Program-made: the position numbers and the translations under genes
Notes under the pieces: model-generated
The model's input: the letters and a program-made list of their open reading frames with translations, nothing else
Told to the model about the DNA's origin: nothing
Database searches by the model: none
Shown: one piece after another, positions 33,814 through 38,371 of the stretch
How the letters are laid out: each line of letters opens with the position of its first letter
Position numbering within the stretch: the first letter of the stretch is position 1
From: Cyanobium sp. FACHB-13342
GTDB lineage: Bacteria > Cyanobacteriota > Cyanobacteriia > PCC-6307 > Cyanobiaceae
Reading direction: 5' to 3'
Assembly (NCBI RefSeq): GCF_014697415.1
Contig: NZ_JACJRT010000009.1
Location: forward strand, 62,001 to 126,000
Length of the DNA stretch: 64,000 nucleotides

Positions 33814-34602
33814 ATGGCCGGCCACAGCAAGTGGGCCCAGATCAAACGCACCAAAGCCGTGGTGGACGCCAAACGCGGCGCCCTGTTCACCCGGCTGGGG
33901 CGGGAGATCACGGTGGCGGCCCGGAGCGGGGCCGATCCAGCCGGCAACTTCCAATTGCGCACGGCACTTGAGAAAGCCAAGGCCGCCGGGCTGCCCAACA
34001 CCAACATCGAGCGCGCCATCGCCAAAGGATCCGGGCAAGGCGGCAGCGGTGGCGACACCTTTGAGGCCGTGCGCTACGAGGGCTACGGCCCCGGCGGCGT
34101 GGCCGTGCTGGTAGAGGCCTTCACCGACAACCGCAACCGCACCGCCGCCGAGGTGCGCCTGGCCTTCAGCAAACAGGGCGGCAACCTGGGCGAGTTGGGT
34201 TGCGTGGGCTATCTGTTCGAACAGCGGGCGGTGGTGCAAGTCGCCTCGCCGTCCCAGCCGGGACAGGCCTTGGACGAAGACGCCCTGCTGGAGGGCCTGC
34301 TGGCCCTGGAGGAACGGGGCGGCCCGCCGTCCCTGGGCTACGAGCTCGATGGCCAGGGGGCCGAGGTGTTCGGGGCTTACGAGGTGCTGGAGGCCCTGCA
34401 GGATGGCCTGCGGGGCCAGGGTTTCGCGGTGACTGGCTGGGAGCACCGCTGGATCCCCCAGACGGCCTGTCTCCTCAGCGACCCTGCCACCCTGCGGGGC
34501 TGCCTGCGCATGCTCGATGCCCTCGAAGAGCTCGACGACGTGCGCAGCGTCACCAGCAACCTGGAGGCCGACGAAGACCTGATCGCCACCGTGCTCGACT
34601 GA
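33814..34602 (+). CDS. YebC/PmpR (TACO1) family protein
   Basis: Member of the YebC family, 262 residues, known as transcription regulators and, more recently, as translation factors that help ribosomes through poly-proline stretches. The N-terminus [20 protein letters not shown] is unmistakable; [36 protein letters not shown] and [18 protein letters not shown] are the further conserved blocks. The ATG at 33814 follows a T-rich stretch (33794-33800). It is slightly longer than the usual 245-250 residues, with small insertions. Probably co-transcribed with truB. Confidence 0.93.
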
Positions 34603-34695: not shown

Positions 34696-36189
34696 ATGCC
34701 AAACCGTCCCTCCGCAGCCTGGGCCCTCGCCGTCCTGGGGCTGCTGAGCGTCTTGCCCTCGGCCGGCCTGGCCCAGGGCGGCACCACCCCAGCGACCAAA
34801 ACCAGCGTGGACATCCCGGCGCTGGGACGCCTGGACCTGGAGAACGGCTACCCGAGCGCCGCCACCGCCCGCAAGCTCTACAACGAACTCGATCTGCAGC
34901 GGGCCACCCAGGGCTACCTCTGGGCCCTACCCGCCGTGGGCTTCAAGGCGCTCTACGACGCCCAGGCCAAAACCATGGGCGTGCGCAACGGCGACGTGCT
35001 GCTCTACCGCACGCTGCAGGACAAGGCGGGGATGCTCACCCCCAACATCACCACCCTCTACGCCTTCAGCTTCTGGGATCTGGCCAAGCAGGGGCCGCTG
35101 GTGGTGGAGGTGCCGGCCGGGCTCACCGCCGGCGGCGTGCTCGACATCTGGCAGCAGCCGATCACCGACATGGGCCAGACCGGGCCCGACAAGGGTGCCG
35201 GCGGCAAGTACCTGATCCTTCCCCCCGGGGGACCGGAGGTGGTGGCCCCGGGCTACCGAATCTTCCGGGCGTCCAGCAACCAGGTGTGGTTCGGCACCCG
35301 CGGCCTGGCCCCCGACAAGGCCGTGGCCGAGGCCACCGTGCGCCAGCACCGGCTCTACGGCTGGAACCAGCGCGCCAATCCGCCGGTGTCCCGCTACGCG
35401 GAGGTGGGCGGTCGCCCCTGGCAGTCGGCCCAGCCCGCCGATCTCTCCTACTGGCGGCTGCTCAGTGAGCTCTATGCGAACGAGCCGGTGGCCCCGCGCG
35501 ACCGGATGATGTTCGGAATGCTGTCACCCCTGGGCATCAACCCCGGCCAGCCCTTCCAGCCCGATGCCCGCCAGGCGCGGATCCTGGGCGAGGCGGCCCA
35601 GCTGGGCGACCTGATGGCCCGCAGCATCGCCTACGACAAGCGCACCCCCGGCGCCACGGTGTACCCGGGCAAACTCTGGGAATACGCGGTGCTCTTCGAT
35701 CTCGACCAGGAATCGCCCGACAAACGGCGGGTGCAGTTCGACGAGCGCACGTCGTGGTTCTACGAGGCGATCGGCATGTCGGTGGGGATGCAGGGCCGGG
35801 TGGTGGGCTTCGGCCAGGTGTACCTGGAGGCGTCCAAGGACGCCAAGGGCCAATGGCTCGATGGCGGTCGCACCTACCGCATGCGGGTGCCGGCAAGCGC
35901 CCCGGTGAAGCAGTTCTGGTCGATCACCCTCTACGACAACCTCAGCCGCGGACCGCTGATCACGGCGCAGGGCGCCGCCGACCTCAGCTCCCGCAAACCC
36001 GATCTGGTGAGCAACGCCGACGGCTCGGTGGATGTGGATTTCGGGCCTGTCCGCCCTGCGGGCGCGAAGAACTGGATCCAGACCAGCCCGGGTAAGGGCT
36101 GGTTCGCCTACTTCCGCTTCTACGGCCCCACTGAGCCCTATTTCGCCAAGACCTGGCAGCTGAACGACATCACACCCATTCAGCCATGA
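34696..36189 (+). CDS. Exported DUF1254/DUF1214 domain protein (first of a tandem pair)
   Basis: Secreted protein of 497 residues and unknown function. A Sec signal peptide (about 1-27, ending SAGLAQG) precedes a DUF1254 region (about 60-190: LWALPAVGFKALYDAQAK, LTPNITTLYAFSFWDL) and a C-terminal DUF1214 region (about 375-490: FWSITLYDNLSRGPLI, WFAYFRFYGP). These two domains usually occur together in bacterial exported proteins and in some algae. No cofactor site is recognised. Its stop overlaps the ATG of the second copy by four bases (ATGA), so they are made together. The pair is flanked by ordinary core genes. Base composition is not visibly foreign. Confidence 0.85.
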   Translation: MPNRPSAAWALAVLGLLSVLPSAGLAQGGTTPATKTSVDIPALGRLDLENGYPSAATARKLYNELDLQRATQGYLWALPAVGFKALYDAQAKTMGVRNGDVLLYRTLQDKAGMLTPNITTLYAFSFWDLAKQGPLVVEVPAGLTAGGVLDIWQQPITDMGQTGPDKGAGGKYLILPPGGPEVVAPGYRIFRASSNQVWFGTRGLAPDKAVAEATVRQHRLYGWNQRANPPVSRYAEVGGRPWQSAQPADLSYWRLLSELYANEPVAPRDRMMFGMLSPLGINPGQPFQPDARQARILGEAAQLGDLMARSIAYDKRTPGATVYPGKLWEYAVLFDLDQESPDKRRVQFDERTSWFYEAIGMSVGMQGRVVGFGQVYLEASKDAKGQWLDGGRTYRMRVPASAPVKQFWSITLYDNLSRGPLITAQGAADLSSRKPDLVSNADGSVDVDFGPVRPAGAKNWIQTSPGKGWFAYFRFYGPTEPYFAKTWQLNDITPIQP

Positions 36190-37619
36190 CACCGATCCAC
36201 CATCGCCCGCTCCGGCCCCTTGGGCTGATCCTCGCCCTGATGACGATGGCCAGCGTGCCGGGCCCAGCCCTAGCCGCCACGCCAGCCGCCATAGCGCCGG
36301 CGGCCACCACCGCCCCAACCCCCGCCGAAGCGAAGGCCATCGCCGAGGAGGCCTGGCTCTACGCCTACGCGCCGCTGCAGGGCTACCAGACCTTCTGGAA
36401 CCAGACCCAGAACAAGGCCTTTCCGGGCTATGTGGGCGGGTTCAACCGGTTCCGCCACTACAGCCGTTCGGCCACCCCGGCAGACACGGACATCGTCACC
36501 CCCAACAACGACACGCCCTACTCCTGGGCCTGGCTGGATCTGCGGGCCGAGCCGATCGTGCTGAAGCTGCCGGCGGTGAAGGCACCCCGGTATTACGTGA
36601 ACCAGTGGTTCGACCTCTACACCCATAACTTCGCCTATACCGGCGTGCGGGCCACGGGGCGCGGCGCCGGCACCTACCTGTTCGGCGGCCCCCGCTGGCG
36701 GGGCACGGTTCCCAAAGGAATCACCAAGGTGTTCCGGGCCGAGACCGATTTCGTGGGCACCCTCACCCGCACCCAGCTCAACGGACCCGACGACATCCCC
36801 GCCCTGCAGGCGCTGCAGGCCCAGTACCAACTGATCCCCCTCTCGCGCTTTGAAGGAACCCAGCCCCCCAGGCCCGCACCGGCGGTGACCTGGCCTGCCT
36901 GGGATGCCGCCAAGGCCGAGGGAATCGGCTTCATCAGCTATCTCAACGCCCTGCTGCCGTTCATGCCCACCGTGCCCTCGGAGAGGGCGCTGATGGCGCG
37001 CTTTGCCCGCATCGGCATCGGCCCGGGCCGCCCCTTTGATCCGAATCAGCTCCAGCCCGCCACCCGCAGCGCCATCGAGGCCGGGGTGGCCGCCGCCGCC
37101 GCCAACCTGCGTACCAAGGCCCTGGCCCAGAGCAGTTCGAAGGGGTTCTTCGGCACCCGTGACGAACTGGGCAGCGACTACCTCACCTACCGCGCCATGG
37201 GGGCGATGCTGGGGATCTACGGCAACAGCAGTGCCGAGGCCTTCTACGCCAGCCAACAGACGGGCCCCGACGGCAAGGTGCTCGACGGCCGTCGCCAGTG
37301 GGTGCTGCGGTTCCCCGCCGGCCAGTTGCCGCCGGTGCGTGAGTTCTGGTCGATCACGATGTACAACCTGCCCCAGCGGTTGCTGGTGGCCAATCCGATC
37401 AACCGCTATTCAATCGGGGATCGCACCCAGGGCCTGAAGCTGGGGCCCGACGGCTCCCTGGAGATCTATCTCCAGCATGACAACCCAGGGCCAGACAAGG
37501 TCTCCAACTGGTTACCCGCCCCCGCTGGGCCCTTCTTCTTCGTGGGCCGTCTCTATGGACCAGGCCCGTCGGCCCTCTCCGGGCAATGGCAGCTGCCCCC
37601 CCTGCAGGAACGCCCCTAG
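36186..37619 (+). CDS. Exported DUF1254/DUF1214 domain protein (second of a tandem pair)
   Basis: Paralogue of the preceding gene, 477 residues, also with a Sec signal peptide (about 1-32, ending GPALAATP). DUF1254 region: EAWLYAYAPLQGYQTFWNQT and IVTPNNDTPYSWAWLDLRAE; DUF1214 region: REFWSITMYNLPQRLLVANP and a C-terminal FFVGRLYGPG. The two copies share the domain order but differ strongly in sequence, so this is an old duplication or the two were acquired together. The four-base overlap with the first gene implies a joint complex or pathway. The stop overlaps the convergent nagB stop by four bases. Function not inferred. Confidence 0.85.
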   Translation: MTPIHHRPLRPLGLILALMTMASVPGPALAATPAAIAPAATTAPTPAEAKAIAEEAWLYAYAPLQGYQTFWNQTQNKAFPGYVGGFNRFRHYSRSATPADTDIVTPNNDTPYSWAWLDLRAEPIVLKLPAVKAPRYYVNQWFDLYTHNFAYTGVRATGRGAGTYLFGGPRWRGTVPKGITKVFRAETDFVGTLTRTQLNGPDDIPALQALQAQYQLIPLSRFEGTQPPRPAPAVTWPAWDAAKAEGIGFISYLNALLPFMPTVPSERALMARFARIGIGPGRPFDPNQLQPATRSAIEAGVAAAAANLRTKALAQSSSKGFFGTRDELGSDYLTYRAMGAMLGIYGNSSAEAFYASQQTGPDGKVLDGRRQWVLRFPAGQLPPVREFWSITMYNLPQRLLVANPINRYSIGDRTQGLKLGPDGSLEIYLQHDNPGPDKVSNWLPAPAGPFFFVGRLYGPGPSALSGQWQLPPLQERP

Positions 37620-38371
37620 CGCTCCTGGGGGAGGGCGGTGGCTGCAGGGCCATCCACCAGCACCTCCAGCCGCGGGTGGTGCTGCAGCCAACTGGCCGGC
37701 ACCTCCGGGCAGGGAGGCTCCAGCAGCGCCCGGCGCAGCATCGAGGCCTTGGCCGCACCGGTCACCACCAGGAGAATCCGCTCGGCCGCCAGGATCTCGG
37801 CCAATCCCAGGGTGATCGCCTGGAGCGGCACCGCCCCGGCATCCCCGCCGAAGGCCGGGGCGTTCTGGGCCCGGGTGGCGGCACTGAGCGCCAGGCAACG
37901 GCAGGGGGCCTCCGGGCCACAGGGGGGTTCGTTGAAGCCCACGTGACCATTGCTGCCCAAGCCCAGGAGCTGCAGACCGATCCCCCCTGCGCCAACCAGG
38001 GCCGCCCGATAGCGCCCGGCCTCCTGCAGGGGATCGGCCGCCAGGCCATCGGGCAGCTGCACCTGGGCCGGCGCCAACCCGAGCGGGCCCTGCAGCTGAT
38101 CCGCCATGAACGCGGCGAAGGAACGGGGATCGGTCGGCCCGAGGCCGACGTATTCATCGAGGTTGAAGCTGAGCCAGCCCTGCCGGATGGCCTGCTGGTC
38201 CGGCGCGTTGAACCGATCAAACTGCCGCCGCAAGGCGCCATACACGGGCACCATGGTGCGTCCCGTGGCCAGGCCCAGGGGACGGGGACAGGAGGCGCGA
38301 CGCTCCTGCAACAGCCGCTCCGCCACCGCCTCGGCCACGGCCCCGGGGTCTGCCATCACGGTCAACTCCAC
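37616..38371 (-). CDS. nagB: Glucosamine-6-phosphate deaminase
   Basis: Converts glucosamine 6-phosphate to fructose 6-phosphate and ammonia; 251 residues. Signature residues are in [28 protein letters not shown] (catalytic Asp), [16 protein letters not shown] (catalytic His and Glu region) and [14 protein letters not shown]. Related 6-phosphogluconolactonases lack the GHVGFNEP combination, so NagB is preferred. ATG at 38371. No nagA or amino-sugar transporter is next to it. It lies 2 bases after the SpoIID-domain gene stop and is likely on the same message. Confidence 0.9.

Follow-up and report, generated by a model that had tools for sequence, protein, structure and literature searches.

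The pair and its two protein types

The 64,000-nucleotide stretch of the genome of the freshwater picocyanobacterium Cyanobium sp. FACHB-13342 analyzed here (contig NZ_JACJRT010000009.1, positions 62,001 to 126,000 of the forward strand; hereafter the window) carries two overlapping genes whose products each combine a DUF1254 and a DUF1214 domain. Gene 1 (34696..36189, + strand) has an ATG start and encodes a protein of 497 amino acids that we call type 1; gene 2 (36186..37619, + strand), which also begins with ATG, encodes a type 2 protein of 477 amino acids, and the sequence ATGA (36186..36189, + strand) holds both the stop of the former and the start of the latter. A preliminary description of this DNA, made from the letters alone, had reported two overlapping open reading frames (ORFs) of these lengths with the same domain order, and the coordinates, the ATGA and the Pfam matches all agree with it. 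Both products match PF06863 and PF06742 far above the Pfam cut-offs (73.3 and 99.5 bits for gene 1; 149.6 and 112.6 bits for gene 2), with DUF1254 first in each case; an NCBIfam search gave a name to neither. Since close relatives (81-91% identity) are intact in 17 other genomes among the 250 sampled from the order, the two ORFs are not the product of chance. A probable signal peptide precedes each protein: the N-termini, like those of close relatives, resemble Sec signal peptides when judged by eye, and the export of both is likely on this basis. Scans around the pair for promoters, terminators and RNA families gave no matches, and the cysteine plus methionine content of the proteins (2.0% for gene 1, 1.5% for gene 2) does not clearly deviate from the mean of 2.5% (standard deviation 0.9) of the 44 proteins predicted in the window.

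The strong divergence that had been noted between the two copies is borne out by an identity of 27% over 400 aligned columns. The type 1 and type 2 profiles nonetheless align with each other across 399 columns (E 5.3e-50), which identifies the types as old paralogues. Judged by sequence comparison, genes 1 and 2 are thus representatives of two ancient paralogue types whose nearest relatives of solved structure are, respectively, VPA0735 and VPA0106 of Vibrio parahaemolyticus. VPA0735 (PDB 2p3y, 3vb9) resembles gene 1 in sequence (E 1.4e-107, about 40% identical) and the gene 1 model superposes on it at 1.5 Å over 457 residues (Z 52.5), a match of the fold over its whole length. VPA0106 (PDB 3u07) resembles gene 2 both in sequence (E 1.7e-48) and in fold (Z 36.2 over 396 residues), although the identity in the structural alignment is just 28%. 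The structural models of both proteins are confident (predicted local distance difference test, pLDDT, 92.4 and 89.7) and find good matches within their own fold family only, one further member of which is 6ans, an uncharacterised protein from Burkholderia. Outside this family, single domains match jelly-roll ligand-binding folds weakly, examples being the periplasmic domain of RetS (Z 6.6) and several carbohydrate-binding modules (CBMs; Z about 5); weak jelly-roll matches of this kind are common in structure searches, and other families may lie outside the matches listed.

The two types have kept a common set of residues, 31 columns having an identical residue in at least 85% of the members of both. 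Among them are (gene 1/gene 2) N117/N107, Y122/Y112, D150/D143, R202/R195, Y376/Y354, W408/W388, D442/D422, N459/N441, R474/R455 and Y476/Y457. There is no His, Cys or Glu among the 31, which disfavors a metal site common to both types. Because the same invariant polar residues are retained in each, it is probable that the two types work through one kind of site, and neither resembles a dead copy.

Two observations on related genes may be added. In V. parahaemolyticus the protein of solved type 1 structure is encoded in the cluster VPA0713-VPA0735, which PMC10734457 proposes to be a mobile element. In the window genome itself, a 799-amino-acid ORF on another contig (C1; locus L005, 4757-7156, - strand) contains two DUF1254 and two DUF1214 stretches and is a fusion of a type 2 protein with a shorter second module; by eye, an AraC-like gene adjoins it, and similar frames of 814 amino acids are found in genomes G132 and G040.

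A two-gene cassette and its insertion site

A scan of named genomes returned at least 80 gene-1-type loci, and the counts of adjacency given here refer to the 80 that were listed. Among these, the nearest non-cyanobacterial relatives are mostly from freshwater alphaproteobacteria (72-78% identity), followed by those of beta- and gammaproteobacteria, Bacteroidota, Acidobacteriota, Verrucomicrobiota and Planctomycetota; many of the genomes are metagenome bins whose taxon labels may be wrong. In 38 of the 80 loci a type 2 gene lies on the same strand within 500 bp, either downstream (26 loci, one of which also has a type 1 gene upstream) or upstream (12). The remaining loci have another type 1 gene only (12), or a type 1 gene that is alone (20) or alone near a contig end (10). 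The window pair, with one gene of each type, adjacent and on one strand, fits this arrangement. The cultivated strain Synechococcus sp. BO 8801 (L094) also carries both types. The two types also occur as natural fusions, one in each order: type 1 followed by type 2 in a protein of 932 amino acids (G185), and type 2 followed by type 1 in one of 911 amino acids (G173). Adjacency together with fusion in both orders is a usual sign of cooperation, and hence the two proteins likely act together; a complex of the two, which the preliminary description had raised as a possibility, is supported by these comparisons.

The same description had taken the four-base overlap to imply a fixed ratio of the products, which the comparisons do not support. 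The ATGA junction is found again within the genus, in the three other pairs (G159, G052, G022), and also among the 26 listed loci with a downstream type 2 gene, 6 of which have it (L087, L088, L100, L101, L105 and L150); elsewhere the two types are spaced apart or fused, so that the overlap is real and not fixed. Moreover, 5 of the 18 genomes with a close gene 1 have no intact close gene 2: G247 retains a remnant of it, and nothing of it was seen next to gene 1 in G155, G125, G175 and G235. With such variable spacing and such absences, the overlap alone is no proof of a fixed ratio.

In the gene 1 tree 20 cyanobacterial copies form a single clade (support of 99 in the Shimodaira–Hasegawa-like approximate likelihood ratio test, SH-aLRT) which stands beside six alphaproteobacterial copies. 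The distances in the gene 1 and gene 2 trees are correlated (r 0.76 over 32 pairs, a value reached in 0 of 2000 permutations, once the three long-branch rows L122, L085 and L084 are dropped; r 0.53 over all 35 pairs), in part because adjacent genes share a history; the two trees have just 10 of 29 splits in common. The gene 1 tree joins G162, a member of another genus, to G052, a member of the window's genus, with a support of 99, whereas a core protein places G052 (96%) nearer to the window genome than G162 (92%); this grouping was not repeated in the gene 2 trees. The family also travels on plasmids, 206 plasmid records having matched gene 1, all at less than 60% identity and mostly from rhizobia; the window pair itself was not seen among them. 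We consider that genes 1 and 2 are a two-gene cassette that moves horizontally and across phyla.

Within the cyanobacteria, the distribution was followed in 250 genomes of the order, the window genome included, and in 292 genomes of the phylum. A gene-1-like match is present in 65 of the 250; in 18 it is close and near full-length (81% or more), and there is one further fragment. Gene-2-like matches occur in 73 of the 250 genomes, 13 of them close (77% or more), and all 13 close copies come after gene 1, as separate genes in 12 cases and fused in one. Of ten genomes sampled within the genus, four have the close pair, and G043 has a divergent one. Across the phylum, 22 of the 292 genomes have a gene-1-like match.

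The site of the pair is bordered by core genes, as had been stated. Upstream are truB and yebC, the latter (33814..34602, + strand; PF01709/PF20772) marking one edge of the insertion site; downstream, and encoded on the opposite strand, are a Glucosamine_iso-family gene that we call nagB (37616..38371, - strand; PF01182), which marks the other edge, and a SpoIID-domain gene. Gene 2 and the nagB-like gene converge and share their last four bases (37616-37619), which leaves the cassette hardly any spare DNA in its site. In 14 of the 15 relatives queried yebC could be located, and in 8 of these 14 loci it adjoins nagB directly, leaving an empty site (G131, G153, G118, G125, G186, G162, G113 and G185). 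Three others have about 1 kb between the two genes (G111, G198 and G043, where by eye it is a hydrolase-like gene), G135 holds the pair there, and the G221 contig stops within yebC. In G159 and G052 the same site contains the pair along with about 1.2 kb of extra sequence, an alpha/beta hydrolase in the case of G159. In G022 (L072) the pair is on the nagB side and yebC is about 18.6 kb away, part of the gap being mobile-element-like by eye. The site is empty in G131, whose core-protein identity to the window genome is the highest observed (97%, tied with G159). Since occupancy differs in this way among relatives, the site is variable and the pair is an accessory insertion. The earlier suggestion of an accessory pair is thereby upheld: instead of near-universal presence with vertical descent, there are 18 close copies in the 250 genomes of the order, 22 matches in the 292 of the phylum and an empty site in the closest relative.

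Sulfatases beside the relatives of the pair

When the neighbors of the 80 listed loci were clustered, the recurrent families, apart from the DUF1254/DUF1214 proteins and their shadow frames, were one with outer-membrane-like members (24 loci), sulfatases (16) and HAD-family proteins (14); "outer-membrane-like" is our own reading, two members of that family having matched no Pfam model. The link with sulfatases was followed in the order, where 93 of the 250 genomes have a PF00884 match. All 18 genomes with a close gene 1 have a sulfatase, as against 75 of the 232 others (p 6e-9), and for any gene-1-type match the figures are 58 of 65 genomes with it and 35 of 185 without, comparisons which ignore ancestry and genome size. 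Physical linkage, counted from listed match positions only, is also in excess: in 25 of the 62 genomes having both, a family locus and a sulfatase are within 10 kb of one another, where random placement would give 1.7. Phage integrases served as a control for genomic islands; across the same 62 cyanobacteria, a listed sulfatase lies no more than 10 kb away from 27 of 93 family loci and from 0 of 150 listed integrases. Because many of the linked marine genomes share one inherited cluster, these counts are not independent, and genomes not used before were therefore also examined. Among ten cyanobacteria outside the order with a gene-1-like match (some of them weak), nine have a sulfatase and five have it within 5 kb (G275, G278, G344, G369 and G440), where 0.08 would be expected. 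In many marine Synechococcus-like genomes (L234 and L235 among them) we also saw tandem type 1-type 1 pairs, a pairing unlike that of the window, at 2-14 kb from a sulfatase.

The organization of these clusters, which are partly annotated and in which some genes were named by BLAST to Pfam-named examples, is operon-like in G079, G183, G173 and G275. In G079 a type 1 gene sits 65 bp from a sulfatase gene that overlaps the gene of a formylglycine-generating enzyme (FGE), the sulfatases concerned being of the formylglycine (FGly) type; in G183 a type 2 gene precedes the sulfatase by 118 bp; and in G173 the fused protein is 90 bp from one sulfatase, with a second on its other side and an FGE-like gene nearby. 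The order in G275 is FGE, symporter-like gene, sulfate permease, sulfatase, type 1, HAD and sulfatase. The same-strand gaps to sulfatase genes in these four genomes are 65-202 bp. Relatives of the pair thus lie in clusters of the known bacterial FGly-sulfatase kind (sulfatase, FGE, sulfate permease), whereas neither protein of the pair has a domain of a sulfatase or an FGE, and the window locus is outside such a cluster. In G162 the pair, whose gene 1 shares 93% identity with that of the window, belongs to an island that also carries a sulfatase, an FGE, an AraC-type regulator and genes of symporter-like and DUF202-like type. The window genome has a collinear island on its contig C7 (sulfatase 94%, FGE 72%, symporter-like 58%, DUF202 58%) which lacks the pair, 178 bases separating the sulfatase from the symporter-like gene. 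Thus G162 has the pair within the island and the window genome has the two separately, yet neither has been lost.

A proposed role and its alternatives

We propose that the two related two-domain proteins would form a heteromer outside the cytoplasm that acts on organic molecules bearing sulfate, of which sulfated glycans or other sulfate esters are the likeliest, either by binding them or by processing them in part; sulfatases would then release sulfate from these molecules, and the cell would take up the freed sulfate when sulfur is short. We give about even odds to the reading that the pair forms an exported complex which cooperates with sulfatases in handling sulfated molecules, the sulfated substrate being what we infer from the neighboring genes. 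A wider version, in which the heteromer would be an unrecognised standard partner of FGly sulfatases, capturing sulfated molecules and presenting or pre-processing them, in a cassette moved across several phyla, is more tentative and we regard it as rather doubtful. The proposal draws on the adjacency and fusions of the two types, on their correlated tree distances, on the sulfatase counts given above, on the recurrent neighborhood of FGly-type sulfatase and FGE, on the sulfate permease of G275, on the shared invariant residues and on the weak jelly-roll and CBM-like structural matches. According to PMC4634964, sulfur depletion strongly induces the relative that a DUF1214 gene has in Chlamydomonas, an observation in keeping with the sulfatase link but obtained independently of it.

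Several findings nonetheless weigh against this proposal. No sulfatase or FGE gene adjoins the window pair; the only PF00884 match found in its genome is on contig C7 while the pair is on C18, and the two are unlinked in other genomes of the genus too, so that the link is one that holds for the relatives and not for the window locus. To the shared inheritance of the marine clusters must be added a weaker link outside the cyanobacteria, where 7 of 15 genomes, hand-picked from the 80 listed loci, have a family locus and a sulfatase within 10 kb against 1.9 expected, as well as the 8 of 74 genomes of the order with some family match that have no sulfatase match. The jelly-roll matches are weak (Z under 7), the relatives in G059 and G173 seem by eye to be without a signal peptide, and there are the 5 of 18 genomes already mentioned that have a close gene 1 and no intact close gene 2.

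The preliminary description was right that the function of these domains is not established: the sole functional proposal that we found in open-licence print concerns the DUF1214 (PF06742) proteins of Malassezia, which share this Pfam domain with the pair and are described in PMC4634964 as likely secreted and horizontally acquired. There the gene is a single-copy fungal one, and its role as a glycosyl hydrolase is a model-based prediction. This model, the weak CBM-like fold matches and an OprB-type porin in the G173 cluster would suit secreted glycosyl hydrolases or glycan binders acting on unsulfated polysaccharide or on the cell wall, with sulfatases nearby by virtue of general polysaccharide loci. 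Neither Pfam nor NCBIfam matched a glycosidase domain in either protein, however, and the residues conserved in both types include Asp but no Glu; the named neighbors are sulfatase, FGE and sulfate permease, with no glycosidase identified in the partly annotated clusters read. We therefore think such a role fairly unlikely. Nor do we put much weight on a passive co-residence in which both accessory gene types gather in the same islands without cooperating. Both are indeed patchy, the window pair is at a variable site without a sulfatase and relatives are present on plasmids, but integrases, the markers of islands, were not close to sulfatases (0 of the 150 listed within 10 kb), the same-strand gaps to sulfatase genes in G079, G183, G173 and G275 are of 65-202 bp, and the link recurs in other cyanobacterial families; we consider this explanation improbable.

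Some other exported role, for example in envelope stress or the binding of small ligands, to which the sulfatase link would be secondary, is suggested by the induction of a Listeria DUF1254 gene by a bacteriocin (PMC12791056), by the presence of Caulobacter and Bradyrhizobium members in iron and denitrification regulons (PMC3751524, PMC6710368) and by the best fold match outside the family, the periplasmic sensor domain of RetS (Z 6.6). These Listeria, Caulobacter and Bradyrhizobium members may nevertheless be of other types, and the surroundings of the close relatives showed no link of this kind; this possibility we hold to be quite improbable. A derivation of the pair from a virus or from a viral auxiliary gene set is extremely improbable. 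Relatives do occur on some contigs labelled viral, but the best of these reach 48% identity to gene 1, across half its length, and 45% to gene 2, compared with the 72-78% of freshwater alphaproteobacteria, and the matches in phage records are all to unannotated "Listeria phage LM" contigs at less than 40% identity. As nothing beyond weak relatives emerged from the viral contigs scanned or from phage records searched with tblastn, a viral origin was set aside. The short unannotated "Listeria phage LM" records that encode DUF1254/DUF1214 relatives (OR847259, OR848596, OR848136, OR846720 and others) may be bacterial contigs filed as phage.

The protein families and the two solved structures were already known; the type 1/type 2 cassette and the link with sulfatases we did not find in the open-licence literature searched. 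The preliminary description had correctly recorded the pair itself and had missed the two ancient types with their solved homologues, the recurrence of the pair in many phyla and the sulfatase link. Solved structures of the two types became public years ago, yet no function has been assigned to them, and the sulfatases and maturation enzymes now seen as neighbors make their function directly testable. If the proposed partnership with sulfatases is true, it would explain why these genes are so frequently paired, and the pair would represent a missing layer of proteins in the acquisition of sulfur from sulfated organic matter by picocyanobacteria and other aquatic bacteria.

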